Shown: piece by piece, positions 990 through 25,962 of the stretch | How positions within the stretch are numbered: position 1 is the stretch's first letter | How the letters are laid out: each line of letters starts with the position of its first letter | Assembly (NCBI RefSeq): GCF_029626225.1 | Contig: NZ_JARUBP010000001.1 | Coordinates: 558,001-622,000, forward strand | Source: Asanoa sp. WMMD1127 | GTDB lineage: Bacteria; Actinomycetota; Actinomycetes; Mycobacteriales; Micromonosporaceae | Direction: 5' to 3' | Length of the DNA stretch: 64,000 nucleotides | The notes under the pieces: model-generated | Databases searched by the model: none | What the model was told of the DNA's origin: nothing | What the model saw: the letters and a program-made list of their open reading frames with translations, nothing else | Program-made: the position numbers and the translations under genes

Positions 990-3155
990 ATGTCCCGCAC
1001 CGAGATCAGAGCCGCCACCGAGAGCCCGACGTCGACCGGCCCCGCCCAACCTCCCGACCGGGCCACCACGCTGCTTCTCAAGATCTTCGGCCGCCGCTCC
1101 AAGTGGCTGGTCCTGGTCGTCTGGATCGCCCTGCTGGCCGGTGTCGGGCCGATCGCCAACAAGCTCTACGAGGTGACCAGCGACGACGCGCTGGCCTGGC
1201 TGCCCGCGTCGGCCGAGTCGACCGTGGTCGCGGCCCAGGAGGACCGCTTCCCCGACGAGGGCACGCTGCTGGCCGTCGCCGTGTTCGCCCGCGACTCCGG
1301 CCTCACCGACGCCGACCGCGCCGCCGTCTCGGCCGCCCGCGACCGCCTGCAGACGTTCGCCGCCGGCGGGCAGATCGCGGACGCCCTGCCGTCCCCCGAC
1401 GGCCGCGCGCTGGCCCTGCTGGTGCCCATGCCGGTCGGCGACGACGGCGGCGTGGCCGCCGACCGCGTCAACGAGCTGCGCGACGAGGTGCGGGCCGGCC
1501 TGCCGGGCGGCCTGGAGGCCAAGACCACCGGCCCGGCCAGCGCCGGCGCGGACATCGGCGAAGCGTTCGCCGGGCTCGACGCGACGCTGCTGTCGGTCAG
1601 CGTGCTGGTGGTGGCCATCCTGCTGCTGGTCACCTATCGCAGCCCGTCGCTGTGGTTGATGCCGCTGCTCGCCGCGGGCGCCGCCATCCAGCTCGCCAAC
1701 ACCCTGGTCTACCTGCTGGTCGAGCAGGCGGGTCTGGTCGTCAACTCGATGAACGCCGGCATCCTCACGGTGCTCGTCTTCGGCGCCGGCACCGACTACG
1801 CGCTGCTGCTCATCGCCCGCTACCGCGAGGAGCTGCACCGCCACGAGGACCGGCACGTGGCCATGGCGGTCGCACTGCGCCGGGCCGGCCCGGCCGTGAT
1901 CGCGTCCGCGGCCACCGTCGCCGTCGGCCTGCTCTGCCTGCTCGCCGCCGACCTGAGCTCCAACCGCGGCCTCGGCCCGGTCGGTGCCATCGGCGTGGTC
2001 ACCGCGCTGATCGCGATGCTGACGCTGCTCCCGGTGCTCCTGCTGATCTTCGGCCGCGGCCTGTTCTGGCCGTTCGTCCCCCGGGCCGGCACCCCGCCGC
2101 GCTCCGGGCGCAACCTGTGGGCCCGGATCGGCACGGTGGTCGCCCGCCGGCGCCGGCTCGTCTGGGTGGGCACCGCGCTCGTGCTGGCCGCCCTCTCGTT
2201 CGGCGCCAGCGGCATCACGATCGGCCTGACCGGGGCCGACGTCTACACGACCCGGCCCGAGTCGGTGCAGGGCCAGGAGCTGCTGGCCGCCCACTTCCCC
2301 GCCGGGTCCGCCGAGCCGGCTCTGATCACGGCCAACGCGGCGGCGGCGTCCGCCGTGGCCACGGCCGCCCGGGGCGTCCAGGGCGTGGCCGAGGTCGGGC
2401 CGCCGGTCACCTCGACCGACGGGGCGCTGGTCAAGCTCGAGGCGGTGCTGACCGACCCGCCCGACAGCGCGGCCGCCGAGGCGACGGTGCAGCGGCTGCG
2501 CGACGCCGTGCACGGTGTGGGCGGAGCGGACGCCGCGGTCGGCGGCAGCACCGCCACCACCTACGACACCGACCAGGCCAACGCCCACGACCGCACGGTG
2601 GTCATCCCGCTGGTGCTGGGCGTCGTGCTGGTCATCCTGATGGGCCTGCTCCGCGCGCTGGTGGCGCCGGTGCTGCTGGTGGCGACCGTGGTGCTGTCGT
2701 TCGGCACCGCACTCGGGCTCAGCTGGCTGCTCTTCGAGCACGTCTTCGGCTTCAACGGTGTCGACCAGTCGCTGATCCTGCTCGGCTTCCTGTTCCTGGT
2801 CGCGCTCGGCGTCGACTACAACATCTTCCTGATCACGAGAGCCAGGGAGGAGGCCGCCCACCGTGGCCACCAGGCGGGCATGCTGCACGCGCTCGCGGTC
2901 ACCGGTGGGGTGATCACCAGCGCCGGCGTGGTGCTGGCCGCGACGTTCGCCGTGCTCAACGTGCTGCCGCTGGTCGCGACGGCCGAGCTCGGCCTGCTCG
3001 TCGGCCTCGGGGTGCTGCTCGACACGCTCGTCGTCCGGCCGATCCTGGTGCCGGCGCTCGCGCTCGACGTCGGCCGGAAGTTCTGGTGGCCCAGCCGGCT
3101 GTCCCGCGGATCCACTCCCAACCCGTCGGAGCCCCGTCCGGCGGACGCGGCCTGA
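990..3155 (+). CDS. MMPL-family (RND superfamily) membrane exporter
   Basis: Large inner-membrane transporter of the actinobacterial MMPL type, which exports lipids or small hydrophobic molecules using the proton gradient. The 721 residues show the duplicated MMPL plan: one membrane helix near residue 35, a periplasmic domain, a block of five or six helices, a second lone helix around 390-410, a second periplasmic domain and a final helix block. The motif GTDYALL and its counterpart GVDYNIFL mark the two halves and carry the acidic/Tyr residues typical of the family. I chose ATG 990 because GGAGAG lies just upstream; the frame stays open to 873 but that stretch looks unlike the family. It is convergent with the acyl-CoA dehydrogenase, separated by a strong hairpin. 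Confidence 0.93.
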   Translation: MSRTEIRAATESPTSTGPAQPPDRATTLLLKIFGRRSKWLVLVVWIALLAGVGPIANKLYEVTSDDALAWLPASAESTVVAAQEDRFPDEGTLLAVAVFARDSGLTDADRAAVSAARDRLQTFAAGGQIADALPSPDGRALALLVPMPVGDDGGVAADRVNELRDEVRAGLPGGLEAKTTGPASAGADIGEAFAGLDATLLSVSVLVVAILLLVTYRSPSLWLMPLLAAGAAIQLANTLVYLLVEQAGLVVNSMNAGILTVLVFGAGTDYALLLIARYREELHRHEDRHVAMAVALRRAGPAVIASAATVAVGLLCLLAADLSSNRGLGPVGAIGVVTALIAMLTLLPVLLLIFGRGLFWPFVPRAGTPPRSGRNLWARIGTVVARRRRLVWVGTALVLAALSFGASGITIGLTGADVYTTRPESVQGQELLAAHFPAGSAEPALITANAAAASAVATAARGVQGVAEVGPPVTSTDGALVKLEAVLTDPPDSAAAEATVQRLRDAVHGVGGADAAVGGSTATTYDTDQANAHDRTVVIPLVLGVVLVILMGLLRALVAPVLLVATVVLSFGTALGLSWLLFEHVFGFNGVDQSLILLGFLFLVALGVDYNIFLITRAREEAAHRGHQAGMLHALAVTGGVITSAGVVLAATFAVLNVLPLVATAELGLLVGLGVLLDTLVVRPILVPALALDVGRKFWWPSRLSRGSTPNPSEPRPADAA

Positions 3156-3249: not shown

Positions 3250-4977
3250 TCACGGCACGGGGACCGGGCCGCCGAGGGGCAGGGGCGTCAGCGAGAAGAG
3301 CTGCCGGCCGGAGGCTTGGGACAGAAGAGCGTCCCAGACCGCGTCGGCCGCCTCGGGCGAGAGCTGACGCTCGGGAGCAAGCCGCTGGACGAGCCGCTCC
3401 AGGCAGGCCACCAGCAGGTCGTCGCCGGCGGCGTCGTCGTGCAGCCAGGTCCACAGTAGACACGCGGCGGCGTGCAGGACGCAGTGGGTCCGGGCCATCG
3501 AGAAGGCGAGCAGCTGCGGCTCGCGCGCCGCCGCGACGGGTGACGCCCCCTCGTAGTGCGCCCGGGCGCGGGCCCAGGCCGTGTCGAGCTCGGCCAGCAC
3601 CGCGCGCAGCGGCGCGCCGGCGCCCGGGCGGGCCAGCACCCGCTCCACGGCCACCGACCAGCTCGCCGTGATCTCGTCACGCCCGCCGTTGGTCAGCTGC
3701 AACCGCCGGCCGTCCGGCGTCCACGGCGTCGCCTCGCGCGAGCGGTCGAAGAGGGCGGTCAGCAGGTCGTCGTCGGCTTCGCCCGGCGCCGGGCGGGTGA
3801 GCACGAACGGCAGTTGCGCCGCGATGCCGCCCAGGTTGACGTGCGTCGTGCCCTCGAAGATGCCGGCGATGGCCTGGTCGCGGTCGAGCTTCTGGAACGC
3901 GCGGGCCGGCAGCGCGTCGCGCAGGTAGCCGCGGGCGCTGAGCACGGTCCGCAGATCGGCGACCGCCTGCTCGACCGTCGTCGGCACGAAGTACTTCACG
4001 ATCCCCGACCACAGGCTGAGGCGGTCGGGTGCGACGCTGATCGCCCGCGTCGCCGGCACCGCCACGCACTCGCCGACGAGCAGGTCGAGGTAGGCGCGGA
4101 CCAGCACGTCCCGCACCACCGGCAGCGCGGTGATCGCGGCGCCGTAGAGGACCCGCCGCTGGCCGTGGCCGAGGGCGATCCGCAGCGCGGTGTCGAGGCT
4201 GCCCAGCGACAGCGCGCCGATCAGCGTGCGGGTGACCTGCAGGGCCTTGAGCGTCTGGGCGATGCCGGTGCCGGGCCGGCCGAGCACCGCGGCGCCCGGC
4301 ACGGGGCACTCGTCGAACACGATGCCGCTCATGTCGTGACCCCGCAGGCCGAGGGTGGGCACGCGGGGCGTGTTGGACCACCGCCGCGCGGGCAGCGCCG
4401 CCTTGTCGAGCAGCAGCAGGGAGAAGTCGCGGGGGCCCGTGCGGGCGTACACCGTGGCGAACGTGCCGCGGGTGGCGTTGCCGATCGGCCATTTCTCGCC
4501 CGAGAGCAGATAGCCGCCGGATCCGTCCGGCCGCGCCACCACCTGGCAGCCCGCGAGGTCACTGCCGTGGTCGCGCTCGGACATCGCGAACGAGCCCAGG
4601 TCGCCGCCGCGGAGCCGGTCGGCCAGCCAGCCGCGCTGGTCGGCGTCGCCCCACAGCCACACGGGGTTCGCACCGAGCAGCGCCGTGCCGTAGGAGACGG
4701 CGGCCCGCACGTCGCGGCGGGCTACGACCCGGGACACGGCGAACAGCTCCTCGAAGGTACGCAGCCGCCCGCCCAGCGCCTCGGGCACCAGCAGCGCCGG
4801 GAACTCCCACTCGCGCAGTGCGGCCATCAGCGCGACCGGCATCTCGCCGGCGTCGTCCGCCTCGACCGAGGCCGCGAAGGACGCCGGCGTGCCGTCGTCG
4901 TCCGGGTCGCCCAGGAATTGTTCGAGCGCCGCGGCGGATTGATATGCGGGCGGCGGAACGGCATTCGATCCGGTCAT
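3250..4977 (-). CDS. Acyl-CoA/acyl-ACP dehydrogenase family protein
   Basis: FAD-dependent dehydrogenase (575 aa) expected to introduce an alpha,beta double bond into an acyl thioester. The N-terminal and middle domains carry the family patterns around AMSERDHGSD (131-140) and SGEKWPIGNA (159-168). The C-terminal helical domain holds GIFEGTTHV near 372-380, where Glu375 is the likely catalytic base. At 575 aa it is longer than a minimal ~380-aa enzyme, with a C-terminal extension after about residue 390. Start ATG 4977 has GGAGGTGA upstream. It diverges from the FAAL/ACP genes, so the true substrate may be the FAAL-loaded acyl-ACP, as for the acyl dehydrogenases of friulimicin-type lipid starters; that is inference from context. 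Confidence 0.9.
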   Translation of the reverse strand: MTGSNAVPPPAYQSAAALEQFLGDPDDDGTPASFAASVEADDAGEMPVALMAALREWEFPALLVPEALGGRLRTFEELFAVSRVVARRDVRAAVSYGTALLGANPVWLWGDADQRGWLADRLRGGDLGSFAMSERDHGSDLAGCQVVARPDGSGGYLLSGEKWPIGNATRGTFATVYARTGPRDFSLLLLDKAALPARRWSNTPRVPTLGLRGHDMSGIVFDECPVPGAAVLGRPGTGIAQTLKALQVTRTLIGALSLGSLDTALRIALGHGQRRVLYGAAITALPVVRDVLVRAYLDLLVGECVAVPATRAISVAPDRLSLWSGIVKYFVPTTVEQAVADLRTVLSARGYLRDALPARAFQKLDRDQAIAGIFEGTTHVNLGGIAAQLPFVLTRPAPGEADDDLLTALFDRSREATPWTPDGRRLQLTNGGRDEITASWSVAVERVLARPGAGAPLRAVLAELDTAWARARAHYEGASPVAAAREPQLLAFSMARTHCVLHAAACLLWTWLHDDAAGDDLLVACLERLVQRLAPERQLSPEAADAVWDALLSQASGRQLFSLTPLPLGGPVPVP

Positions 4978-5144
4978 TTTCCGGTCACCTCCGTCGATGT
5001 CGTCGAGGCGACGATACTGTGCCGCCGACGACGCGGAGAAGCACCAGAACCCTGCTTCTAGAGGCGTTCCAGCAGGGCACTAGCGCGGCCGAATAGCTTC
5101 GCGCAGAACGATCCGGCCGGCCTGTGCGCACTGGAGGTTCGATT
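4978..5144. promoter_or_regulatory. Divergent promoter region between acyl-CoA dehydrogenase and FAAL operon
   Basis: This 167-bp gap separates the two divergent arms of the biosynthetic locus and must hold the start signals of both. Ribosome sites are visible at each end: GGAGGTGA before the dehydrogenase and GGAGG at 5133-5137 before the FAAL. I could not recognise convincing -35/-10 pairs or a clear operator. Confidence 0.45.
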
Positions 5145-6911
5145 ATGCCGAACCAACCGAGATTCGAAACTCTCGTCGATATGTTGCGTTATCGCGCCGC
5201 CCGTACGCCGAACAAGGAAGCATTCTTTTTCACACAGGAAAGTGGCGACCTGGCCGTCGGCGACCTGCTGACCTATGGCGAGCTCGACGCCGGCGCGCGC
5301 CGGATCGGCGGCTGGCTGCGGGCCCACCTGCCCGGTGGCGCCGCCGGCCGGCCCGTCGTGCTGGCCTTCCCGCCCGGCCTCGAGTTCGCGATGGCCTACT
5401 TCGGCTGCCTCTACGCCGGCGCGATCGCGGTCCCGGCGCCACCGCCGGACGGCAACCGGCTCCACCAGGAGCGGGTCGAGCGGATCGTCGCCGACTGTGC
5501 CGCGGCCGCGCTGTTGACCGACACGGTCGTCCGGTTCGCCGAGCGGCCGCCGGGCGACGTCCCGGTGTTCGCGACCGGTCCAGGCCGGATGCCCGACGTC
5601 GGCTGGGAGCCACCGGCGCTCACCGGCGACGACCTGGCGATGCTCCAGTACACGTCGGGCTCCACCAGCGAGCCCAAGGGCGTGATGCTGACGCACGGCA
5701 ACGTGCTGGCGAACCTCGAGCTGATCTCGCGGCGCGCGGACACCGACCACCGGCTGCGGGTCTGCGGCTGGCTGCCGTTCCACCACGACATGGGGCTGAC
5801 CCAGCTGCTCAGCGTCAGTTACGTCGGCGGCTTCGGCGCCCTGATGTCGCCGACGGCCTTCCTCAAGCGGCCGCACCGCTGGCTGCACATGGTGCACCAC
5901 TTCCGCGGCGACATCATGCTGGCGCCCAACTTCGCGTACGACCTCTGCGCCCGCCGGATCCCCGACGCCCAGCTGGCCGGCGTCGACCTGAGCAGCGTGC
6001 GGCTCGCCATGAACGGCGCGGAGCCGATCGCGGCGCAGACGATCCGCGGTTTCGCGACCCGGTTCGCGCCGCTGGGCTTCCGCCCCGAGGCGGCCTACCC
6101 CTGCTACGGGATGGCGGAGGCGACCCTGTTCGTCACCGGCGGCCGCGCGGGCGAGGTGCCGGTGCTCCGGCACGTCGTCACCGAGCAGCTCGAGGCGGAC
6201 CGGCTGGTGGGGGCCGTGGGCGGTGCGCACACCACCGAGCTCGTGGGCAGCGGCCAGGTCGACGGCTACGACCTGCGCATCGTCGACACCGCGACGGGTG
6301 CCCCGCTGCCACCGGGCCGGATCGGCGAGATCTGGGTACGCGGCCCCAGCATCGGTCGCGGCTACTGGAACCGGCCGGCCGAGTCGGCCGACACCTTCGA
6401 CGCCCACACCCCCGACGGCGAGGGCGGCTTCCTGCGCACCGGCGACCTCGGCGGCCTGCTCGACGGCGAGCTGTTCGTCACCGGGCGCCGCAAGGAGATG
6501 CTGATCGTGCACGGCCGCAACCTCTACCCGCAGGACATCGAGCGCGCCGTCCGGGCGCTGCACCCGGCCCTCGACGCCGGCCTGGGCGCCGCGTTCGCGG
6601 TCGCCGACGACGATCCGCGCGTGGTCGTGGTGCAGGAGGTCCGCGGCACGCTCCCGCCCGACTCGGCCGGACCGCTGGTCGGGGCGATCCAGGCGACCGT
6701 GAGCCGGGAGTTCGGGATCAAGGTGGCCGCCGTCGCGCTGCTGCGCCCCGGCCAGGTGCCCCGCACCACGAGCGGCAAGGTGCAGCGCCGGCGCGCCCGC
6801 GAGCTGTTCCTGGCCCACCGGCTGACGACCGTGCACGAGCAGGTGGCGCCCGGGGTCCGCCCGGCACCTGCCAGTTCGACGCCGCCACAGGCGGCGGCGC
6901 CCGCCCGCTGA
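5145..6911 (+). CDS. Fatty acyl-AMP ligase (FAAL)
   Basis: Activates a fatty acid as acyl-adenylate and hands it to a carrier protein, here most likely the ACP 14 bp downstream. The 588 residues include the adenylation core motif SGSTSEPKG at 171-179, the FAAL-type PFHHDMGL segment, a conserved YGMAE motif, TGDLGG near the hinge and a C-terminal KEMLIVHGRNLYPQDIE block. The last of these is the FAAL pattern seen in FadD32-like enzymes and differs from acyl-CoA ligases. ATG 5145 is preferred over the in-frame GTG 5124 because GGAGG lies 7 bp before it. It is the first gene of the plus-strand operon. Chain length of the substrate cannot be read from the sequence. Confidence 0.95.
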   Translation: MPNQPRFETLVDMLRYRAARTPNKEAFFFTQESGDLAVGDLLTYGELDAGARRIGGWLRAHLPGGAAGRPVVLAFPPGLEFAMAYFGCLYAGAIAVPAPPPDGNRLHQERVERIVADCAAAALLTDTVVRFAERPPGDVPVFATGPGRMPDVGWEPPALTGDDLAMLQYTSGSTSEPKGVMLTHGNVLANLELISRRADTDHRLRVCGWLPFHHDMGLTQLLSVSYVGGFGALMSPTAFLKRPHRWLHMVHHFRGDIMLAPNFAYDLCARRIPDAQLAGVDLSSVRLAMNGAEPIAAQTIRGFATRFAPLGFRPEAAYPCYGMAEATLFVTGGRAGEVPVLRHVVTEQLEADRLVGAVGGAHTTELVGSGQVDGYDLRIVDTATGAPLPPGRIGEIWVRGPSIGRGYWNRPAESADTFDAHTPDGEGGFLRTGDLGGLLDGELFVTGRRKEMLIVHGRNLYPQDIERAVRALHPALDAGLGAAFAVADDDPRVVVVQEVRGTLPPDSAGPLVGAIQATVSREFGIKVAAVALLRPGQVPRTTSGKVQRRRARELFLAHRLTTVHEQVAPGVRPAPASSTPPQAAAPAR

Positions 6912-6925
6912 CCGAGGAGACCGAG

Positions 6926-7186
6926 ATGGCCACCGACTCCGACGAGTCCTACGACGAGATGCTGGAGTGGCTGACGGAACGGGTCACCTTCTACCTGGAC
7001 CGGGACGAGCCCGTCGACCCCGACGTCCCGCTCGCCGAGTTCGGCGTCGACTCGATCTACACGGCGAGCATCGTCGGCGAGGTCGAGGAGCGCTACGGGC
7101 TCACCGTCGACCCGACGGCCGCCTGGGACCACCCGACCGTGGCGGCGCTCACCAAGTACCTGCACGAGCGGCTGGCGGCGGGATGA
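6926..7186 (+). CDS. Acyl carrier protein
   Basis: Small acidic carrier (86 aa) that holds acyl intermediates on a phosphopantetheine arm. The attachment motif FGVDSI places the modified serine at residue 43, in the usual position at the start of helix 2. Acidic helices before and after it fit the ACP fold. Its stop overlaps the start of the ketosynthase (ATGA), and the FAAL ends 14 bp upstream, so the three are translationally linked. It most likely receives the acyl chain from the FAAL and presents it to the dehydrogenase and ketosynthase. The pocket sequence VDSIYT is slightly unusual (DSL is commoner) but well within the family. Confidence 0.95.
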   Translation: MATDSDESYDEMLEWLTERVTFYLDRDEPVDPDVPLAEFGVDSIYTASIVGEVEERYGLTVDPTAAWDHPTVAALTKYLHERLAAG

Positions 7187-9162
7187 CCGACGTCGCGGTG
7201 GTGGGGCTGGCCTGCCGGTTCCCGGGCGGGGAGAGCCGCGACGCGTTCTGGGAGCTGTTGCGCCGCGGTGGCGACGGGGTCGGACCCGTGCCGCCGGCCC
7301 GGTGGGAGCCGGACCGCTACTACTCCCCCGAGAGCGCCAGCGGCACGATGAACAACCGCGAGGGCGCGTTCCTGCGCGACGTGGACGGCCTCGACCACGA
7401 GTTCTTCGCGATCAACCCGACCGACGCCGCCGCGCTGGACCCGCACCAGCGCCTGCTGCTCTCCTGCGCCTGGCATGCGCTGGAGGACGCGGGCGTCGAC
7501 CCGACCGGCCTCGCGGGCGCGGCGTGCGGCGTCTACCTCGGCGTCATGGGCAACGACTGGGTGTGGCGCACGGCGGACACCGCGGCGGCCGGCTTCACGT
7601 CGCGCCAGGGCGCCGGCACCGGGCACCACATGGCCGCCAACCGGCTCTCGTACCAGCTGAACCTGCGCGGTCCGAGCCTCGCGATCGACACGGCCTGCTC
7701 GTCGTCGCTGGTCGCCGTGCACCTCGCGGCCCGGGCGGTGGCCGACGGCGACTGCGACTACGCGCTCGCCGGCGGTGTCAACGCCATCCTCGAACCGATC
7801 AACGGCATCTACTTCACGCTGCTGGGCCTGTCAGCGCCCGACGGCCGGTGCAAGCCGTTCAACGCCGCCGCCGACGGGATGGGCCGGGGCGAGGGCGTCG
7901 GCGTGGTGGTGCTGCGCCGGTTGGCCGACGCACGGGCCGCCGGGCAACGGGTCTACGCGGTCGTCCGCGGCGGCGCCATCAGCCACAACGGTCGCAGCAA
8001 CGGCATCACCGCGCCCGCCCGTTGGGGCCAGCAGGAGGCGATCGAACGCGCGTACCGCAACGCCGGTGTGGCGGCGGCGGACCTCGACTTCGTGGAAGCG
8101 CACGGCACGGGCACGCTGATCGGCGACGCCATCGAGGTGAACGCCCTGCGCGCGGTGCACGCCGCCGGCCGCGCGGCGCCGTGCGCGGTGGGCTCGGTCA
8201 AGGGGAACATCGGGCACACCGAGGGCGCGGCCGGCATCGCCAGCTTCATCAAGGCGACCTTGGCGATCCACCACCGGCTGCTGCCACCGACCGTGCACGG
8301 CCGCCCGACCAACCCGGCGCTCGAGCTGGACGGCCCGGTGCTGCGGCTCGTCGACGAGGCCCGACCGTTGCCGGACACCGGCGTCCTCGGGGGCGTCAGC
8401 GCGTTCGGTCTCGGCGGCACCAACGCGCACGTCGTGCTCGCCGGCGACGACGCCCCGGCTGCCGTGCCCAGCCCGGGCCGCGGCGTCTTCACGGTGTCCG
8501 CGCCGACCGACGCGGCGTTGCGGCGCAACCTGCTCGCCCAGGCCGACGTGCTCAGCTCGGCACCGGATGCCGAGCTCGCCGCCCGCTGCCACACCAGCAA
8601 CCGGACGAAGGCGGGGATGCGGGTGCGGTTCGCCGCCGTCGCGACCTCGCGCGTGGCGCTCGTGACGGCGCTGCGGGCCGCGGCGGCCGCGCCGGTGCCG
8701 ATCGAGCGGTCCGGCCGGATCCGGCTCGGCTTCCAGGTCGGCGTGCCGACCGGCCCGGTCGACGACGCGGTCGACCTGTTGCTCGCGCTGCGGCTGGATC
8801 CGGTCGCGCTGCTGGCCACGCCCGGAGCTCCACAGTCCATCGTGGACCGGATCATGACCGCCACCGAGCTGCCCGTCCTGCCCGTCGACGCCGCGCCGCG
8901 CCTCAGTCACGTCGTCCGGATCGGCGACCCCCGGGCGGTCCTCGGCGTGTCCACCATGGACGACGTCTGGTCGGTGGCCGCTGCCCTCTACCGGGCCGGC
9001 GCACAACCGCAGTGGGACGCCCTCTACCGGCCCGACCAGCGCCAGGTGCGACCCCTCGCGCCCTACCAGTTCGCACCGACCCGATTCCCGTTGCCGGAAC
9101 GCGCCGGGCGGGACCGACGCGAGGAGACCACCGCATGGAGCACGACCGGATCCCGGTCCTGA
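7183..9162 (+). CDS. Modular-type ketosynthase with collapsed acyltransferase region
   Basis: Beta-ketoacyl synthase (659 aa) that would condense the ACP-bound acyl chain with an extender unit. The KS domain (1-420) is complete: Cys172 in DTACSSSL, His307 in EAHGTGT and His345 in KGNIGHTEG form the catalytic triad. After it come a KS-AT-linker-like stretch (about 435-505) and a short segment with no GHSxG nucleophile. The C-terminal end (about 590-640) looks like a post-AT linker (LYRAGAQPQWDALY then PYQFAPTRFPL). The ~280-residue AT core is therefore missing and replaced by roughly 85 residues. Extender units would have to be loaded in trans. No KR, DH, ER, ACP or TE domain follows. It starts inside the ACP stop and overlaps the monooxygenase by 28 bp. 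Confidence 0.93.
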   Translation: MTDVAVVGLACRFPGGESRDAFWELLRRGGDGVGPVPPARWEPDRYYSPESASGTMNNREGAFLRDVDGLDHEFFAINPTDAAALDPHQRLLLSCAWHALEDAGVDPTGLAGAACGVYLGVMGNDWVWRTADTAAAGFTSRQGAGTGHHMAANRLSYQLNLRGPSLAIDTACSSSLVAVHLAARAVADGDCDYALAGGVNAILEPINGIYFTLLGLSAPDGRCKPFNAAADGMGRGEGVGVVVLRRLADARAAGQRVYAVVRGGAISHNGRSNGITAPARWGQQEAIERAYRNAGVAAADLDFVEAHGTGTLIGDAIEVNALRAVHAAGRAAPCAVGSVKGNIGHTEGAAGIASFIKATLAIHHRLLPPTVHGRPTNPALELDGPVLRLVDEARPLPDTGVLGGVSAFGLGGTNAHVVLAGDDAPAAVPSPGRGVFTVSAPTDAALRRNLLAQADVLSSAPDAELAARCHTSNRTKAGMRVRFAAVATSRVALVTALRAAAAAPVPIERSGRIRLGFQVGVPTGPVDDAVDLLLALRLDPVALLATPGAPQSIVDRIMTATELPVLPVDAAPRLSHVVRIGDPRAVLGVSTMDDVWSVAAALYRAGAQPQWDALYRPDQRQVRPLAPYQFAPTRFPLPERAGRDRREETTAWSTTGSRS

Positions 9163-10811
9163 TCGTCGGCGGTGGCCTCGCCGGCCTCTCCACCGCCGCC
9201 TTCCTGGCCTGGCACGGCGTGCCGGCGCTGCTGGTCGAACGGCATGCCGCCGCCCTCGGCCATCCCCGAGCCCGGGTGATCAACCCCCGGACCGTCGAGC
9301 TGTTCCGGCAGATCGGGCTCGAGGACGAGATCCTCGCCGCGCGGTCGTTCGCGCACCGCGAGCCGGCCGTGTTCCTCCGCGCCGGGACGCTGGCCGGTCC
9401 CGAGAAGGGCCGCGGGGTGATGAGCAACCCGGGCGGGCCGAGCTTCAGCCCGAGCCCGTGGGCGCCGATCGACCAGGACCGCCTGGAGAACCTGGTCGCC
9501 GCGCACGCGACCCGGCTGGGCGCCGACATCCGTTACGGCCAGGAGCTCGTGGACCTGGTGGACGGCGGGGACCGGGTGACCGCGACGCTGCGCGAGGCGG
9601 CGACCGGTCGGGAGCACACCGTGGTCGCGGACTACCTGGTCGCGGCCGACGGGCACGACTCCGGCATCCGCCGGCGGCTCGGCCTCGAGCTGCAGGGCTA
9701 CGGCCCGCTCGGCAACCTGCTGTCGCTGGTGTTCGCCGCCGACCTGACCCGCGCGATGGCCGGCCGGGAGCTCGCGATCTGCCATCTCGACGAGCCGGAG
9801 GTCGGCACGGTCCTGCTGCCGCACGATCGGGCGGGACGCTGGGTGTTCAGCACGCCCTATCACCCCGAGCGCGGGGAGACGCTGGCCGGCATCAGCGAGC
9901 AGCGCTGCGTCGAGCTGGTCCGGGCGGCCATCGGCGACCCGGAGCTGACCGTCGAGCTGCTGCCCCAGCTGACCGACGGAACCAAGAAGCTCGCCTACTC
10001 GATCGCGGCCGGGGTGGCCGACCGGTACGCGGTCGGGCGGGTGTTGCTGGTCGGCGACGCCGCGCACCTGATGCCGCCGAGCGGGGCCTGGGGCTCCGGC
10101 ACCGGCATCCAGGACGCGCACAACCTGGCCTGGAAACTGGCCGCGGTGCTCACCGGCGTGGCCGCACCGTCCCTGTTGGACACCTACGAGGCCGAACGGC
10201 GCCCGGTGGCGCTGGTCACCGTGCAGGAGTCGCTGCACCAACTGCGCGCGCGCTCCGGCCGCCCGTTGCCCGGCCTGCCCGACGTGCCACCGGCCGACTA
10301 CTTCGCGGTCGTCTTCGGCCACCGCTACGCGTCCCGCCTGATCGCCGCCGACGGTCCCGCCGGTCCCCCGCTGCCGCCCGGTGAGCTGCGTGGCCAGCCG
10401 GGCACGCGGGCGCCGCACGTGTCGTTGCGGCGCGGCGACGAGCCGGTCTCGACCGTCGACCTCTACGGCCGCGACTTCGTCCTGCTCACCGGCGCCGCCG
10501 ACTGGGCGGGCGCGGCGGCCGACATCGCCGACCGCGAGCCGGCGGGCCTGGTGGCGCACCTGATCGGTGTCGACCTCGCCGATCCGGACGGTCGGTTCGC
10601 GGCGGCGCACGGCATCGGCGACGCGGGCGCCGTGCTGGTCCGCCCGGACGGCGTCGTCGCGTGGCGGCAGGTCGGCGCCCCCGACGGCGATCCCGTGAAG
10701 CTGCTGGAGCTGGCCCTCGACCGCGCTCTCGATCGGCACCGTCCGTTGTCGAGCGACCGTCGATCGGCGTATCGCAGCATCGGCGGCAACCAGATCCCAC
10801 CTCGAGGTTGA
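9135..10811 (+). CDS. FAD-dependent aromatic/polyketide-type monooxygenase
   Basis: NAD(P)H-dependent flavin hydroxylase of the PHBH-fold FAD_binding_3 family (558 aa), as used for tailoring of polyketides and aromatic rings. The Rossmann motif VGGGLAGLST begins at residue 11, and the second FAD motif GDAAHLMPPSG lies near residue 306. A C-terminal domain of about 150 residues resembles the thioredoxin-like tail of phenol hydroxylase and RdmE-type enzymes. ATG 9135 lies within the ketosynthase, overlapping by 28 bp, so the two are co-translated. A flavin hydroxylase acting on an acyl/beta-ketoacyl product with no aromatic-ring-forming genes nearby is unusual. The substrate is unknown. Confidence 0.93.
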   Translation: MEHDRIPVLIVGGGLAGLSTAAFLAWHGVPALLVERHAAALGHPRARVINPRTVELFRQIGLEDEILAARSFAHREPAVFLRAGTLAGPEKGRGVMSNPGGPSFSPSPWAPIDQDRLENLVAAHATRLGADIRYGQELVDLVDGGDRVTATLREAATGREHTVVADYLVAADGHDSGIRRRLGLELQGYGPLGNLLSLVFAADLTRAMAGRELAICHLDEPEVGTVLLPHDRAGRWVFSTPYHPERGETLAGISEQRCVELVRAAIGDPELTVELLPQLTDGTKKLAYSIAAGVADRYAVGRVLLVGDAAHLMPPSGAWGSGTGIQDAHNLAWKLAAVLTGVAAPSLLDTYEAERRPVALVTVQESLHQLRARSGRPLPGLPDVPPADYFAVVFGHRYASRLIAADGPAGPPLPPGELRGQPGTRAPHVSLRRGDEPVSTVDLYGRDFVLLTGAADWAGAAADIADREPAGLVAHLIGVDLADPDGRFAAAHGIGDAGAVLVRPDGVVAWRQVGAPDGDPVKLLELALDRALDRHRPLSSDRRSAYRSIGGNQIPPRG

Positions 10812-10820
10812 GGAGCGCAG

Positions 10821-11030
10821 ATGCCCTTTCGCGTACGCGTGGCCGCCCTGCTCCGGCGGGGTTGGGCGCACGTGGTGGACGGCTTGACCTGGGTGGGCCA
10901 CAGCGCCTATACCGTGCCCGACTGGCCGGAGCGTGCGGAGCCCCCGTCGGGTGACCCGGACCCGGTGCCCCTGACCCCGGACGAGCAGGCCGCCTGGGAG
11001 CAGTTGAGCCGACGGGCGGCCCGGCGGTGA
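10821..11030 (+). CDS. Small protein of unknown function in carrier/biotin operon (69 aa)
   Basis: Short protein with a basic N-terminal helix (FRVRVAALLRRGWAHVV), a Pro/Asp-rich middle and a C-terminal helix starting LTPDEQAAWEQL. The start at ATG 10821 has GAGGAG upstream, and the stop overlaps the GTG start of the BCCP gene (GTGA), which argues that it is really translated. The composition recalls the small DUF6059-like proteins found near carboxylase genes in streptomycete clusters, but that resemblance is from memory and weak. An acyl-CoA-carboxylase epsilon-like role is another idea without a supporting motif. Confidence 0.7.
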   Translation: MPFRVRVAALLRRGWAHVVDGLTWVGHSAYTVPDWPERAEPPSGDPDPVPLTPDEQAAWEQLSRRAARR

Positions 11031-11530
11031 ACGGCAACGGGTCGCAGGCGCGGGACGAGCGCGAGGCCGAGATCCTGCTCGACACCATCGCCCGGCATGC
11101 CGCCCGACTGGGCGCGGCCGGCGTCGCGCCGCTGCGCCGGATGCGGGTCAGCTCCGGTGACGCCACGGTCGACGTCGAGTGGCAGCAACCGGAGGGCGCC
11201 CCGACCGCGACCGTGGTCGCCGTGCCCACGACCACTTCGGTGGTCACGGCGGCAGCCGAGCCGCTCCCGGACACCTTCACTCTCGGCGCGCCGGCCGTCG
11301 GCACCTTCTACCGCGCGCCCGAGCCGGGCGCACCGCCCTTTGTGGAGGTTGGCGACGTCGTCTCCGCCGGGCAGCAGATCGGAATCATCGAGGCGATGAA
11401 GCTGATGAACCCGATCGAGGCGGAGCGGCCCGGTCGGGTGGTCGAGATCGTGGCGAGCGACGCCAGCCCGGTCGAGTACGGCCAGCCGATCCTCGTCCTC
11501 GCTCCGGTCCAGAACCCCGCAGACGCCTAG
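11027..11530 (+). CDS. Biotin carboxyl carrier protein (AccB-type)
   Basis: Carries biotin between the carboxylase and carboxyltransferase steps of acetyl-CoA carboxylase. The 167 residues end in a biotinyl domain with the motif EAMKLMN, Lys125 being the biotinylated residue, and PAVGTFYRAPEP marks the start of that domain. The N-terminal 75 residues are an Ala/Pro-rich linker with a short helical part. The GTG start overlaps the previous stop and the biotin carboxylase follows 8 bp downstream. A free-standing AccB beside AccC is the bacterial type II arrangement and not the fused actinobacterial AccA3 style, which suggests a dedicated malonyl-CoA supply for this pathway. Confidence 0.95.
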   Translation: MNGNGSQARDEREAEILLDTIARHAARLGAAGVAPLRRMRVSSGDATVDVEWQQPEGAPTATVVAVPTTTSVVTAAAEPLPDTFTLGAPAVGTFYRAPEPGAPPFVEVGDVVSAGQQIGIIEAMKLMNPIEAERPGRVVEIVASDASPVEYGQPILVLAPVQNPADA

Positions 11531-11538
11531 GAGGTGCC

Positions 11539-12894
11539 ATGTTCTCGACCGTCCTGATCGCCAACCGGGGCGAGATCGCGCTCCGGATAGCCCGGACGTG
11601 CCGCGAGCTCGGGCTGCGTACGGTGCTCGCGCACTCGACCAGCGACCGCGACGGCCCGCCGGTGCAGTTCGCCGACGAGGCCGTGCAGATCGGCCCGGCC
11701 GCGGCCCGCCGCAGCTACCTCAACCCGGCCGCGCTCGTCACCGCCGCCCTGCAGCGCGGGGCGGACGCGGTGCACCCGGGCTACGGCTTCCTGTCGGAGG
11801 ACAGCGACTTCGCCGAGATCTGCGAGGCGCACGGCCTCGTCTTCGTCGGCCCGCCGGCCAAGGTGATCGCGCTGCTCGGCGACAAGGCCCGGGCCCGCGA
11901 GTTCGTGACGGCAGCCGGCCTGCCGGTGCTGCCCGGCAGCACCCGGGTGCTGAGCTCGGGCACCGAGGCCCGCGCGGTCGCCGACCGGATCGGCTACCCG
12001 GTCATCATCAAGGCGGTCGCCGGTGGCGGCGGTCGTGGGATGACCGTGGTCCGCGAGCCCGGTGAGCTGCTCCGCCGCTACGTCGACACGCGCCAGACCG
12101 CACAGAGCCTGTTCGGCGACTCCCGCGTCTTCGTCGAGCGCTACCTGGAGTCCGCGCGGCACGTCGAGATCCAGATCCTTGCCGACCGGCACGGCAACGT
12201 CATCCACCTCGGCGCCCGGGACTGCTCGGTGCAGCGGCGGCGGCAGAAGCTGGTCGAGGAGAGCCCACCGCCCGGGCTGCCGCCCTCCATTGTGGAGCGG
12301 ATGGGCGCGGCCGCGGTCGAGGTGGCCCGCCAGGCCGGCTACGTCGGCGCGGGCACGTTCGAGTTCATCGTCGACGACCACGACGACTTCTACTTCATGG
12401 AGGTCAACAGCCGGATCCAGGTGGAGCACCCGGTCACCGAGATGGTCACCGGCGTCGACCTGGTCCGCGAGCAACTGGCCGTCGCGGCCGGGCGCCCTCT
12501 GACCCTGCGGCAGGAGGACGTCGCACCGCGCGGCTGTGCGATCGAGTGCCGGATCAACGCCGAGGACCCCGACCGCGACTTCATGCCGACGCCCGGCGTG
12601 ATCGACGAGTACCTGCCGCCGGGCGGACCCTTCGTGCGGGTGGACTCGCACCTGCGGCCCGGCGTGCGGGTCACCGCCGACTACGACCCGCTGCTGGCCA
12701 AGCTCGTCGTCTGGGCGCCCGACCGTGGTCAGGCCATCGCCCGCATGGACCGGGCGCTGTCCGAGCTGCGCCTGACCGGCCCGGGCGTGCGTACCACCGC
12801 CGCCTTCCTGCGGGACGTCATCGCGCATCCGCTGTTCCGCGACGCCAAGCACACCACCGGGCTGGTCGAGCAGATGAGCGCGGTGAGCGGCTGA
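11539..12894 (+). CDS. Biotin carboxylase subunit (AccC-type)
   Basis: ATP-grasp enzyme (451 aa) that carboxylates the biotin on the neighbouring carrier protein using ATP and bicarbonate. The N-terminus LIANRGEIALRIART, HPGYGFLSE, the glycine-rich loop AGGGGRGMT and EVNSRIQVEHPVTE are all family hallmarks. Length matches stand-alone AccC (~450 aa) with no fused carrier domain. Start ATG 11539 is preceded by GGAGG. Its stop overlaps the ABC ATPase start (TGATG). No carboxyltransferase alpha/beta gene is found in the window, so the transcarboxylation step must use a subunit encoded elsewhere. Confidence 0.96.
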   Translation: MFSTVLIANRGEIALRIARTCRELGLRTVLAHSTSDRDGPPVQFADEAVQIGPAAARRSYLNPAALVTAALQRGADAVHPGYGFLSEDSDFAEICEAHGLVFVGPPAKVIALLGDKARAREFVTAAGLPVLPGSTRVLSSGTEARAVADRIGYPVIIKAVAGGGGRGMTVVREPGELLRRYVDTRQTAQSLFGDSRVFVERYLESARHVEIQILADRHGNVIHLGARDCSVQRRRQKLVEESPPPGLPPSIVERMGAAAVEVARQAGYVGAGTFEFIVDDHDDFYFMEVNSRIQVEHPVTEMVTGVDLVREQLAVAAGRPLTLRQEDVAPRGCAIECRINAEDPDRDFMPTPGVIDEYLPPGGPFVRVDSHLRPGVRVTADYDPLLAKLVVWAPDRGQAIARMDRALSELRLTGPGVRTTAAFLRDVIAHPLFRDAKHTTGLVEQMSAVSG

Positions 12895-13889
12895 TGAGCG
12901 ACAACGGCATCGAGGTGACCGGCCTCGTCAAGAAGTTCGGAGCGGTCACCGCCCTCGAGGGGCTCGACCTGACCGTGCCCGCCGGAACCGTGCTCGGCCT
13001 GCTGGGCCCCAACGGCGCCGGCAAGACCACGGCCGTACGCATCATCACGACGCTGTTGCGGCCGGACGCCGGCCGGGCCCTGGTGGCCGGCCTCGACGTG
13101 GTGAGCAAGGCCGACGAGGTGCGCAAAGTGATCGGCCTGTCCGGCCAGTACGCCGCCTGCGACCCGATCCTGACCGGGCGCGAGAACCTCGTGATGTTCG
13201 GCCGGCTGCACCACATCGGCACGCGCGAGGCGCGGCGGCGGGCGGACGAGATGATCGAGCGCTTCGACCTCACGGAGCTGGCCGACCGCCCGGCCCGCAC
13301 GTACTCCGGTGGCAACGCCCGGCGGTTGGACCTCGCCGCGACCCTGCTGGTCCGGCCCAAGGTGATCTTCCTCGACGAGCCCACCGCCGGCCTCGACCCG
13401 CGCAGCCGCCGGGTGATGTGGGAGGTCATCGAGGGGCTGGTCCGCGACGGGGCGACCCTGCTGCTCACCACGCAATATCTCGAGGAGGCCGACGCGCTGG
13501 CCGCCCGGATCGTGATCGTCGAGCGCGGCACCGTCGTCGCCGAGGGCACACCGGACGAGCTGCGTGGCCGGATCGGCGGCGAACGCGTCGAACTGGTGCT
13601 GGAGAAGCCCGCCGACCTGCCCGCCGCCGTCACCGCGATGACCGGCGTCGGCAGCGGCGAGGTGACCACCGACGAGGAGGCGCTGCGCATCGTCGTGCCG
13701 GTGGCCGGTGGCGCGGGCTCCCTGACCACGGTGGTCCGCGAGCTCGACAGCGCGGGCGTCCAGGCCCACGACCTCGCCCTGCGCCGCCCGACCCTCGACG
13801 ACGTGTTCCTGGCGCTGACGGGACGCAAGGCCGAAGCGATTCCCGCGCCGCGCAGAGGTGGCCGGCCGGGCGGAAGGGGACGGCGATGA
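12894..13889 (+). CDS. DrrA-type ABC transporter ATPase
   Basis: Energises a two-component ABC-2 exporter (331 aa). Walker A is GPNGAGKT, Walker B is VIFLDEP, and the C-terminal extension ending LDDVFLALTG is typical of the daunorubicin-resistance (DrrA) family. The signature motif reads YSGGNARRLDLA where the family usually has YSGGMRRRLDLA. The change sits next to the LSGGQ-equivalent core and may be neutral. The gene overlaps the biotin carboxylase stop and the permease start (ATGA), so export is co-expressed with biosynthesis. The likely job is self-resistance or product secretion. Confidence 0.95.
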   Translation: MSDNGIEVTGLVKKFGAVTALEGLDLTVPAGTVLGLLGPNGAGKTTAVRIITTLLRPDAGRALVAGLDVVSKADEVRKVIGLSGQYAACDPILTGRENLVMFGRLHHIGTREARRRADEMIERFDLTELADRPARTYSGGNARRLDLAATLLVRPKVIFLDEPTAGLDPRSRRVMWEVIEGLVRDGATLLLTTQYLEEADALAARIVIVERGTVVAEGTPDELRGRIGGERVELVLEKPADLPAAVTAMTGVGSGEVTTDEEALRIVVPVAGGAGSLTTVVRELDSAGVQAHDLALRRPTLDDVFLALTGRKAEAIPAPRRGGRPGGRGRR

Positions 13890-14674
13890 CCACGCTCGGA
13901 TGGACCGTGCACGACTCGGCCGTGGTGGCGCAACGGCAACTGCGCCGGATCGTACGCGTGCCCCAGTCCCTGTTCTTCTCGCTCATCCAGCCGGTGCTCT
14001 TCGTGCTGCTGTTCACGTTCGTGCTCGGCTCGGCGATCGCGGTGCCCGGCGGCCGCTACATCGACTTCCTGCTCCCGGGCACGTTCGTGCAGACCGTCGC
14101 GTTCGCTGGCGCGGCCACCGCGGTCGGCCTCGCCGACGAGTCCCGCAACGGCTTCATGGACCGGTTCCGGTCGCTGCCGATGTCGCACGCCGCCGTGCTG
14201 CTCGGCCGGATCGCCGCCGACGCGGTGCGCAACCTGATCGTCGTGCTGATCCTGCTGCTGCTCGGCACCGCGCTCGGCTTCCGGCTCGGCACCGGCCCGC
14301 TGGAGGTGCTCGGCGGCCTCGGCGTGCTGGTGGCGTTCAGCCTCGGTTTCTCGTCGCTGGCCGCGGCGATCGGGCTGTCCGTCGGCAATCCGGAGGTCGC
14401 TCAGCTCGCCATGACCATCTGCGCGTTCCCGCTGGTGTTCGCCTCCAGCGCGTACGTGCCGATGGACACCCTGCCGGACTGGCTGCGGATCTGGACGCAG
14501 TTCAGCCCGATCACCGTCACCGTCGAGAGCATCCGCAGCCTGCTCGTGGGCCCTGACGCCGGTGGTCCCGGCGCGGCCCGGCTGGCCCCGCTGGCGCTGC
14601 TCTGGGCGGCTCTGCTCGTCGTGGTGTTCCTGCCGATCGCGGTGCGGGCGTTCCGGCGCCGGTCCGACCGGTGA
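13886..14674 (+). CDS. DrrB-type ABC-2 permease
   Basis: Membrane partner (262 aa) of the preceding ATPase, with six predicted membrane helices and the ABC-2 family core (YIDFLLPG then ADESRNGFMDRFRSLPM). Length and topology match DrrB-like permeases. It starts within the ATPase stop codon and is followed by the multicopper oxidase; its own stop overlaps an alternative GTG at 14671. It is expected to form the export channel for the product of this locus. Confidence 0.94.
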   Translation: MTTLGWTVHDSAVVAQRQLRRIVRVPQSLFFSLIQPVLFVLLFTFVLGSAIAVPGGRYIDFLLPGTFVQTVAFAGAATAVGLADESRNGFMDRFRSLPMSHAAVLLGRIAADAVRNLIVVLILLLLGTALGFRLGTGPLEVLGGLGVLVAFSLGFSSLAAAIGLSVGNPEVAQLAMTICAFPLVFASSAYVPMDTLPDWLRIWTQFSPITVTVESIRSLLVGPDAGGPGAARLAPLALLWAALLVVVFLPIAVRAFRRRSDR

Positions 14675-14709
14675 GCCACCCCCACCGTCCACCCTCGAAA
14701 GGAACGACC

Positions 14710-16185
14710 ATGTTGGACAGACGAACCTTGGTCAAGCTCGGTGCGTTGACCGGCGCCGGGCTGCTGATCCCGCCCGCGGTGACCTCACGTGCGGGCCAGG
14801 CCGCGCCGCCTCCTCCCCACCATGTGCACGGTGGCCACGGCCTCGGGCCGCAGCCGGCCTTCGTCGGCTCGGCACTGGCCGCGACGCCGTTCTCGGTGCC
14901 GCTGCCGCTGCCGTCCACGCTGCGGCCGACCGCATCGCTCTTCGACACCGACTTCTATCTGCTGCGCCACCGCCGGGCCCGGGTCGAGCTGATCCCCGGC
15001 ACGACCACCGAGATCTTCGGGTACGGCGGTTCGTACGTCGGCCCGACCATCCGGGCGCGCACCGGGCGGCGCGTGGTCATCGCCCACGTCAACGAGCTCG
15101 ACATGCCGACGTCGGTGCACCTGCACGGCGGCCACGTGCCGGCCAGCAGCGACGGTCACCCCATGGACCTGATCTCGCCCGGCGCCACGAAGCTCTACCA
15201 CTACCCGAACCACCAGCAGTCGGCGACGCTCTGGTACCACGACCACGCCCACCACATGGAGGCCGAGCACGTCTACCGCGGCCTGCACGGTTTCTATCTG
15301 CTGGAGGACCCGCGCGAGGCCGCCCTGCGCCTGCCGTCCGGCGCCCAGGACGTGCCGATCATGCTGACCGACGCCCAGTTCGCCGAGGACGGCTCGCTGA
15401 TCTGGGTGCAGAACGACTTCCGCAACCGCAACCAGGTGCTCGTCAACGGCCGGCCGCAGCCCTACCTGCGGGTTGCGGCCCGGCGTTACCGCCTGCGGTT
15501 GCTGAACGCGGCCAACCTGCGCTCGTTCGCGCTGAGCCTGTCGACGGGCGAGCAGCTGACGCAGATCGCGTCGGACAGCGGTCTGCTTCCCGCTCCGGCC
15601 GCGGTCGGCGCGGTGGCCCTCTCCCCGGGCGAGCGCGCCGAGGTGGTGGTGGACTTCTCCGCGTACCCGGTGGGTACGAAGCTCCAGCTCGTCGACTCGG
15701 TCGCCGGGGAGCTGCTGCGGTTCGAGGTGGGTTCGGCGCCGCGCGTCGACGCCAGCCGCGTTCCGGACACGCTGCGCCCGCTGGCGCCGCTGCCGACCGC
15801 GGACACGGTCCGGCAGGTGCGGCTCGGCCTCGACTTCGCGTCGGGCACGTTCCAGATCGACGGCAAGACCTTCGACCCGGACCGCGTCGACGCCACCATC
15901 AAGCGGGGCACGTCGGAGATCTGGGAGATCACCAACACCGACACCCAACTCGGCATCCCGCACAACCTGCACCTGCACCTGGTGCACTTCCGGGTGCTCT
16001 CCCGCGACGGCAACCCACCGGGCCCGGGCGAGTCGGGTTCGAAGGACACGGTCAACGTCAACCCGGGTGAAGTGGTCCGCGTCCAAGCGACGTTCGGCGA
16101 CTACACGGGCCGCTACGTCTATCACTGCCACCTGCTGGACCACTCCGCCGTCGGCATGATGGCCCAGATGGAGATCGTCGCCTGA
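14710..16185 (+). CDS. Tat-exported multicopper oxidase (CotA/bilirubin oxidase-like)
   Basis: Secreted copper enzyme (491 aa) that oxidises phenolic or similar substrates by one-electron steps and reduces oxygen to water. It begins with a twin-arginine signal (DRRTLVKLGALTGAG). The copper ligand motifs are present in order: HLHGGH near 137, WYHDHAHHM near 174, HNLHLHLVHF near 420 and YHCHLLDH with the axial Met region GMM near 471. ATG 14710 is chosen because AAAGGAA precedes it; the GTG at 14671 would push the Tat signal inward. The cluster position suggests oxidative coupling or cyclisation of the exported product, comparable in principle to phenoxazinone-synthase-like laccases, but this is inference. 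Confidence 0.93.
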   Translation: MLDRRTLVKLGALTGAGLLIPPAVTSRAGQAAPPPPHHVHGGHGLGPQPAFVGSALAATPFSVPLPLPSTLRPTASLFDTDFYLLRHRRARVELIPGTTTEIFGYGGSYVGPTIRARTGRRVVIAHVNELDMPTSVHLHGGHVPASSDGHPMDLISPGATKLYHYPNHQQSATLWYHDHAHHMEAEHVYRGLHGFYLLEDPREAALRLPSGAQDVPIMLTDAQFAEDGSLIWVQNDFRNRNQVLVNGRPQPYLRVAARRYRLRLLNAANLRSFALSLSTGEQLTQIASDSGLLPAPAAVGAVALSPGERAEVVVDFSAYPVGTKLQLVDSVAGELLRFEVGSAPRVDASRVPDTLRPLAPLPTADTVRQVRLGLDFASGTFQIDGKTFDPDRVDATIKRGTSEIWEITNTDTQLGIPHNLHLHLVHFRVLSRDGNPPGPGESGSKDTVNVNPGEVVRVQATFGDYTGRYVYHCHLLDHSAVGMMAQMEIVA

Positions 16186-25924: not shown

Positions 25925-25962
25925 CACAGTCCTCCCGGACGGTCGACTCGCGTGGCGCGCGC

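Follow-up and report, generated by a model that had tools for sequence, protein, structure and literature searches.

The window, a stretch of 64,000 nucleotides of the Asanoa sp. WMMD1127 genome (contig positions 558,001-622,000; genome of 7.97 Mb in 3 contigs), carries near its left end a packed run of genes that includes a fatty acyl-AMP ligase (FAAL), an acyl carrier protein (ACP) and a type I ketosynthase (KS) which, judged by its relatives, is a former KS-acyltransferase (AT) protein without its AT. A preliminary description had treated these genes as a compact locus of their own, whereas they are the rightmost part of an approximately 57-kb type II (aromatic) polyketide region (contig 516.7-574.2 kb, both outer edges being estimates) which continues upstream of the window. 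The region belongs to a type II polyketide synthase (PKS), and its candidate initiation module would be a new one. That the AT-less type I KS, fed by the FAAL, acts as the initiation module of the type II PKS is put forward tentatively as the overall explanation, with a probability that approaches an even chance without reaching it.

The FAAL cassette and its ketosynthase

The gene identities and their order, obtained from domain searches (for DrrA from homology), agree with the preliminary description. An acyl-CoA (acyl-ACP) dehydrogenase gene (ACAD; 3250..4977, minus strand; PF02770/PF00441/PF02771, motif FEGT), which resembles ACAD1 of Streptomyces FAAL cassettes, diverges from a packed run on the plus strand that opens with the FAAL (5145..6911; PF00501 and PF23024), its partner ACP (6926..7186; PF00550, motif DSI) and the KS (7183..9162; PF00109/PF02801/PF16197). 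These are followed by an RdmE/DnrF-like FAD aromatic hydroxylase (9135..10811; PF01494 and PF21274, Rng_hyd_C), a protein of 69 residues with no Pfam or NCBIfam match (10821..11030), a biotin carboxyl carrier protein of the AccB type (BCCP; 11027..11530; PF00364, motif AMKL, TIGR00531 at 111.8 bits for a cut-off of 115.2), the biotin carboxylase AccC (11539..12894; PF00289/PF02786/PF02785), the ATPase and permease of a DrrAB-like ABC exporter (12894..13889 and 13886..14674) and a multicopper oxidase (MCO; 14671 or 14710..16185; PF07732/PF07731). DrrA is 50% identical to L024:6078-7028 (PF00005 and DrrA1-3_C), and the NCBIfam DrrB-family matches of the permease are all under cut-off. The hydroxylase has as its best NCBIfam match the aklavinone 12-hydroxylase RdmE (470 bits, under the cut-off of 700), and the 69-residue protein has no convincing homologue among the loci compared (next best E 0.03). 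The guanine-cytosine (GC) content by codon position agrees with the reading frames of the window genes, and what are presumably the active-site motifs are kept in KS, ACP, BCCP, ACAD and MCO. FAAL through MCO are likely to form a single operon because the nine junctions measure only -28 to +14 bases with the MCO start at 14671 (the last is +35 with the start at 14710).

The ligase is nearer to FAALs than to acyl-CoA ligases by its PDB ranking, by PF23024 and by NCBIfam FAAL subfamilies (all under cut-off); among its 15 nearest solved relatives, 7r7f (a polyketide synthase chain), 3kxw and the mycobacterial FadD23, FadD32 and FadD28 come first. The ACP is 40-42% identical to the FAAL-partner ACPs of loci L015, L016 and L020 and 31% to that of L024, and only 20% identical to the type II ACP of its own cluster. 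The comparison set comprised 59 named relatives of the KS with fetched flanks, 6 of which have less than 3 kb before the KS. A FAAL (at least 40% identity), an ACAD and an ACP stand directly before the KS in 17 of them, all from Streptomyces, Kitasatospora and Amycolatopsis, where the KS is part of a KS-AT-ACP protein. The order in Streptomyces is FAAL, two ACADs, ACP, KS-AT-ACP and a protein resembling ketoacyl-ACP synthase III (KASIII or KSIII), with a single ACAD in Kitasatospora; the window ACAD is 36-40% identical to the ACAD that follows the FAAL in most cassette relatives and 30-32% in L016, L028 and L060. The conserved block around the KS that the preliminary description had named as a check is thus real for the FAAL/ACAD/ACP/KS sub-cassette and absent for the whole set, as no BCCP, AccC or MCO match of at least 100 bits occurs in the fetched flanks of any of the 59. 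Among the same loci the FAD hydroxylase has matches in six (mycobacterial or other actinobacterial), the MMPL transporter in two, DrrA with DrrB in one and DrrA in one; Skermania L024 carries DrrAB beside FAAL-ACP-KS. By these comparisons the four window genes are shown to be a reduced relative of the Streptomyces-type cassette. A conserved protein without Pfam match (L016:13991-15907, 638 residues) accompanies the FAAL/KS-AT cassettes L015, L016, L020, L021 and L029.

The KS itself, correctly described earlier as a lone KS, consists of KS, KS-AT linker and post-AT linker, and has neither a GHSxG motif nor a C-terminal ACP. Its triad (C172/H307/H345) is intact in an open frame of 659 residues with high third-position GC. 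When aligned with KS-AT-ACP relatives it matches over the KS and the KS-AT linker, leaves out the AT core and picks up again at the AT end and post-AT linker; its tail aligns at or past the AT end in 6 of 6 relatives, in each case with a score above all 200 shuffles. An assembly error in the KS gene was rejected on two grounds: the reading frame is uninterrupted, and the tail can still be aligned with post-AT sequence. The loci examined number 71, with identical KS rows in at least two pairs. An AT follows the KS within 1500 bases in 58 of them and is missing from this span in 12, and in 1 the locus end is reached; the 12 have KS identities of 35-44%, and L062 among them has an AT match further on. 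All 38 loci with at least 50% KS identity (at least 37 of them distinct, L040 and L088 having identical KS rows) carry an AT directly downstream. The tree places the window KS inside a clade of 39 rows (100/99) in which the other 38 are all AT-bearing, with the KS of S. coacervatus L021 as its sister (98/92). As the KS nests among AT-bearing relatives, its AT is, on the evidence of descent, one that was lost in this lineage. The whole genome holds only two AT (PF00698) domains, in a frame of 2444 residues at 6.41 Mb and in a frame of 451 residues at 7.62 Mb that is taken as FabD, neither of which is near the cluster. Neither an AT nor a KASIII was picked up by three probes in contig 498,001-622,000, and no KSIII by two probes in the cluster region.

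In an AlphaFold2 model of the KS (mean pLDDT 83) the KS, linker domain and post-AT linker are predicted to be ordered and the AT remnant disordered. AT-less KSs appear from rank 4 of the Foldseek matches and mostly align over 646-667 columns (TMt 0.84-0.89). For most KS-AT chains the alignment covers about 500-540 columns. The top PDB score, that of 7zma, is the sum of two domains (287 and 305 bits), which makes CurL (382 bits) the closest single domain. Although the KS has no integral AT, a free-standing AT was found neither in nor near the cluster and the KS does not group with trans-AT KSs, in a tree built without a reference set of these. The footprint of the window KS is thus that of an AT-less KS, yet by descent the protein would stand outside the trans-AT group.

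At E <= 1e-150 the KS was found in no genome other than its own among 300 of the family, so that the earlier criterion of a block conserved in several Micromonosporaceae fails for the whole set. The other five genomes of the genus have KS matches of 34-45%, all in frames of 1750 residues or more, and at class level 13 of 394 genomes, its own included, match at E <= 1e-120, the 12 others in frames of at least 1025 residues. The exact gene set was not found elsewhere in the genome sets searched (family, class and named KS relatives). In keeping with the preliminary description, no account of the combination was found in the literature searched, which left most subscription journals out of reach, so that absence from print is not shown. 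Nor did any product name emerge from the family searches or the literature.

The type II region and the unity of the cluster

The 41 kb to the left of the window encode a KSalpha, a chain length factor (CLF), ACPs, cyclases, FabG-like reductases, glycosyltransferases, two Streptomyces antibiotic regulatory proteins (SARPs) and AccDA. KSalpha (contig 532,005-533,267; PF00109/PF02801) has the active cysteine in TGCTAG, the CLF (516,972-518,192) has AAEQAGS at this position as read from its sequence, and a discrete ACP (PF00550) is present, which together define a type II system. The FabG-like short-chain dehydrogenases/reductases (SDRs), which lie upstream of the window with KSalpha, CLF, two more ACPs and the cyclases, overturn the earlier statement that a ketoreductase is lacking. 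KSalpha is 75-79% identical to those of 10 relatives and the CLF 59-67% to theirs. These relatives are the 10 best non-self matches among the 194 of 300 same-family genomes that match KSalpha at E <= 1e-150, and 20-40 kb were fetched from each. The two genes are usually, though not necessarily, side by side, as they are in 9 of the 10; in G284 they are apart on opposite strands. In the window genome the CLF and its own type-I-like ACP (L085:18694-20000 with L067:1-192) are placed approximately 14 kb from KSalpha (L067:14005-15267); the CLF and an SDR at 518.6 kb were assigned by sequence and homology only. Common to all 10 relatives are KSalpha, CLF, ACP, both cyclases, a cupin, one ABM protein and a FabG-like SDR. 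The set of cyclases, ABM, cupin and SchA_CurD proteins, which marks the pentangular class, is present, and the cluster is probably of the pentangular type II aromatic kind, a class label that depends on these marker genes.

From the left end (contig 516,694-558,807) the genes encode, in order, an ACP, the CLF, a SnoaL-like protein, an SDR, a glycosyltransferase, a P450, a family-less protein, a PIG-L protein, a hexapeptide-repeat protein, cytochrome bd subunits, a SARP, two ABM proteins, a FabG-like SDR, an anthrone-oxygenase-like protein, a PF03364 cyclase, an ACP, KSalpha, a cupin, a PF04673 cyclase and two transporters. There follow a flavin halogenase-like protein, an RdmE-like hydroxylase, a second anthrone-oxygenase-like protein, a P450, a SchA_CurD protein, a glycosyltransferase, an SDR, a second SARP, AccDA, a luciferase-like monooxygenase, an O-methyltransferase, a 3-hydroxyisobutyrate-dehydrogenase-like protein, a second SchA_CurD protein, a FabG-like SDR, a second PIG-L protein, a second MCO, a BNR protein and a two-component pair. 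Both glycosyltransferases are EryCIII-like. The pair consists of a response regulator (L068:18967-19632; PF00072 and GerE) and an adjoining histidine kinase (PF07730, minus strand), whose 5' part occupies window positions 1..807 and whose gene ends at contig 557,629. Next to it stands an MMPL-family transporter (990..3155, plus strand; PF03176), a probable cluster exporter. Further left still, at 508.9-513.8 kb, another SARP-like gene and an ABC pair were read from the sequences. The cytochrome bd subunits I and II (L067:6846-9121, contig 524,846-527,121) lie inside the polyketide cluster, in a genome with four PF01654 loci; it is possible that the product is aimed at respiration and that the bd oxidase confers self-resistance.

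That the window genes and the upstream type II genes are one cluster is well supported. AccDA is a fused protein (PF03255 and PF01039; contig 546,570-548,309) and the nearest carboxyltransferase to BCCP and AccC, at approximately 21 kb, so that biotin carboxylase, carrier and carboxyltransferase of an acetyl-CoA carboxylase are all encoded in the cluster. Five of the 10 best KSalpha relatives have AccDA, BCCP and AccC as direct neighbours, the copies beside AccDA being 44-52% (BCCP) and 61-68% (AccC) identical to those of the window, and no such trio came up in the stretches fetched from the other 5. In the window genome AccDA is kept with the core and BCCP-AccC are placed in the FAAL operon. 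BCCP and AccC are likely to partner AccDA, which falls short of proof because the genome holds 7 PF01039 and 6 PF00289 loci. Near the type II core of the same-genus genome G072 there are homologues of the MMPL transporter (52%), DrrA (45%), DrrB (31%) and the response regulator (31%), and near that of G189 one of DrrA (51%). ACAD and FAAL-type ACP matches are absent from all 10 fetched KSalpha stretches, and none has the full ACAD/FAAL/ACP/KS set; FAAL-like matches (27-35%) occur only in G056, G177 and G140, and the KS matches are partial cross-hits. In G106, G171 and G189 the FAAL matches (E <= 1e-95) are hundreds of kb or more from KSalpha. Among the matches listed, as compared by eye, KSalpha and a FAAL come within 30 kb only in the window genome and in G034, where a protein of 1011 residues (L164:2522-5557) with a C-terminal FAAL and an N-terminal part of approximately 440 residues lies 8-9 kb from a type II KSalpha.

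The MCO keeps its copper motifs (HLHG/WYHDH/HNLHLH/HCHLLDHSAVGM) and, as described earlier, has a twin-arginine-like start, DRRTLVK, as read from the sequence. Its solved relatives are topped by bilirubin oxidase and CotA, and it probably oxidises phenols outside the cytoplasm. Homologues are found near the cores of G056, G177, G106 (48-51%, in the type II cluster) and G251, a recurrence which suggests that these oxidases may have a repeated role in aromatic polyketide tailoring. The Asanoa cluster itself has two (L068:15570-17129 and window 14710-16185). To the right of the MCO there is a RibD_C-type gene. Elsewhere the window encodes two large proteins on the minus strand (19937-29355), one with RHS repeats (1993 residues) and the other with laminin-G-like domains (1130 residues). 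A divergent pair of BTAD (SARP-type) regulators, each of about 1000 residues, stands back to back at 37381-40434 and 40632-43634.

Proposed priming of the type II synthase and its alternatives

The gene content, the loss of the AT, the intact catalytic residues and the presence of all acetyl-CoA carboxylase subunits are shown here and are the starting point for a mechanism in which the carrier partners, the priming and the order of tailoring are inferred. It is proposed that a KS-AT-ACP protein was stripped in frame of its AT and ACP and, together with the FAAL, the ACP and the dehydrogenase, became an initiation module that starts the type II PKS from free fatty acids, dispenses with a KSIII and yields a lipid-primed polyphenol; in this complete form the proposal is conceivable and falls clearly below an even chance. 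The FAAL would adenylate a free fatty acid and load it onto the partner ACP, where the dehydrogenase may turn the acyl group into an alpha,beta-unsaturated one. The AT-less KS would then accept it for one condensation with malonyl on another carrier, which could be the type II ACP or the CLF-adjacent type-I-like ACP and would receive its malonyl group from the housekeeping malonyl transferase. In this role the KS would resemble the KSIII that primes other type II systems, with a different origin. KSalpha-CLF would extend the beta-ketoacyl primer with malonyl-CoA supplied by BCCP, AccC and AccDA. The polyphenol would be tailored by the FAD hydroxylases, P450s, glycosyltransferases and copper oxidases and exported by DrrAB and the MMPL transporter.

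Several observations weigh against priming. The fork that joins the window KS and L021 to their neighbours has low support (91/59), and no end branch in the 39-row clade is longer than that of the window KS (0.64), which may reflect relaxed constraint. Residues 507-585 of the KS are modelled at pLDDT below 50, Foldseek ranks KS-AT didomains first by E-value (DEBS 6c9u, CurL 4mz0) and the full-length matches to AT-less KSs have a root-mean-square deviation of 5-8. BCCP and AccC could pair with another of the carboxyltransferase loci in the genome. The fetched stretches of the relatives reach approximately 20 kb to each side of KSalpha, and the FAAL is 30 kb from it here. Finally, the FAAL-type protein of G034 belongs to a cluster with glycosyltransferases, and in Asanoa the genes for a PIG-L-like and a hexapeptide-repeat protein stand side by side with those for a P450 and a glycosyltransferase, an arrangement that fits amino-sugar acylation.

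Acyl tailoring is accordingly a serious alternative and the main rival of priming. Here FAAL, ACP, dehydrogenase and KS would build a beta-keto or enoyl chain for attachment to an amino sugar or a hydroxyl of a polyphenol primed with acetate in the normal way, a reading that is somewhat doubtful and still well within reach. In teicoplanin-type antibiotics a fatty acid is put on deacetylated aminosugars, and the two EryCIII-like glycosyltransferases, the two PIG-L deacetylase-like proteins and the G034 cluster would suit such a route, as would the hexapeptide-repeat protein (393 residues) beside one PIG-L gene if it were an acyltransferase, although it is assigned by its repeats only. Simple acylation, however, needs no condensing KS, and BCCP and AccC are carried in the same packed run.

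The FAAL operon might alternatively make an oxidised acyl product of its own beside an unconnected type II PKS. The cassettes of the 17 named relatives, which have no recognisable BCCP, AccC or MCO, and the approximately 7 kb of PIG-L, MCO, BNR and two-component genes that separate the SDR at 552.2 kb from the MMPL gene are compatible with this. It is nevertheless improbable given that the nearest carboxyltransferase is AccDA, 21 kb off, with the trio contiguous in 5 of the 10 related clusters, that type II cores have homologues of MMPL, DrrAB and MCO in their vicinity and that RdmE-like hydroxylases suit aromatic substrates. Just as improbable, or marginally more so, is that the KS is a decaying relic which lost condensation along with its AT and ACP, as its long end branch might indicate, since the 659-residue frame is open, the Cys-His-His triad intact, third-position GC high and the post-AT linker still predicted to be ordered. 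A Pks13/mycolate-like system, which likewise combines FAAL, KS and carboxylase, was rejected, as the KS is without the AT that would take a carboxylated substrate and BCCP and AccC match copies beside type II cores.

If the priming proposal is true, type I and type II polyketide machinery have been joined via the loss of one domain, free fatty acids have an entry into aromatic polyketides and there is a natural case of an AT-less KS that arose from an AT-bearing one. In either case, an unstudied lipid-bearing polyphenol is predicted.

Comparison with known systems

The initiation modules of type II PKSs named in a review include the KSIII ZhuH of R1128, DpsC, GilQ and EncN, the last of which passes a free acid to the ACP with no CoA intermediate; the term 'AMP ligase' occurs 0 times in its main text (PMC12664062). 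As in these modules, a separate enzyme set is proposed here to load a non-acetate primer for KSalpha-CLF; unlike them, it would consist of a FAAL and an AT-less type I KS, with no KSIII found by the two probes. In hedamycin biosynthesis a type I PKS, which is multidomain and has its own AT, feeds the starter to a type II PKS. The review names a hexadienyl primer for hedamycin (PMC12664062). Both systems would use type I PKS parts for the supply of a type II starter, which are a FAAL and a KS without AT in Asanoa.

Xantholipin, lysolipin and albofungin belong to the pentangular-type class, whose long chains adopt a pattern of five angularly fused rings. The Asanoa cluster shares with clusters of this type the minimal PKS, the cyclases and the monooxygenases, as well as the AccDA/BCCP/AccC genes of the clusters related to it, and differs from them in the displaced CLF, the FAAL/KS cassette and the cytochrome bd genes. 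Asparagine synthetases are described as common in xanthone members (PMC9469721), whereas the scan of the genes here turned up none. FAALs are presented as starter loaders in passages on nocuolin A, whose NocH/NocG are cyanobacterial, with FAAL and ACP fused, and for which these passages mention no link to a type II PKS (PMC11837247).

The trans-AT KSs bacillaene PksJ KS2, OzmH KS7 and MgsE KS3 resemble the window KS in that a KS, linker domain and post-AT linker are present without an AT, whereas the window KS belongs by sequence to an AT-bearing clade and has no free-standing AT near its cluster. The closest counterparts are the Streptomyces, Kitasatospora and Amycolatopsis cassettes (L015, L016, L020, L021 and L029), whose FAAL, ACAD, ACP and KS are homologous to those of the window, with the KS in the same clade. 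In contrast to these, the window copy is without the AT, the PKS-borne ACP, the second ACAD, the KASIII-like protein and the protein of approximately 640 residues, and is located within a type II PKS region.

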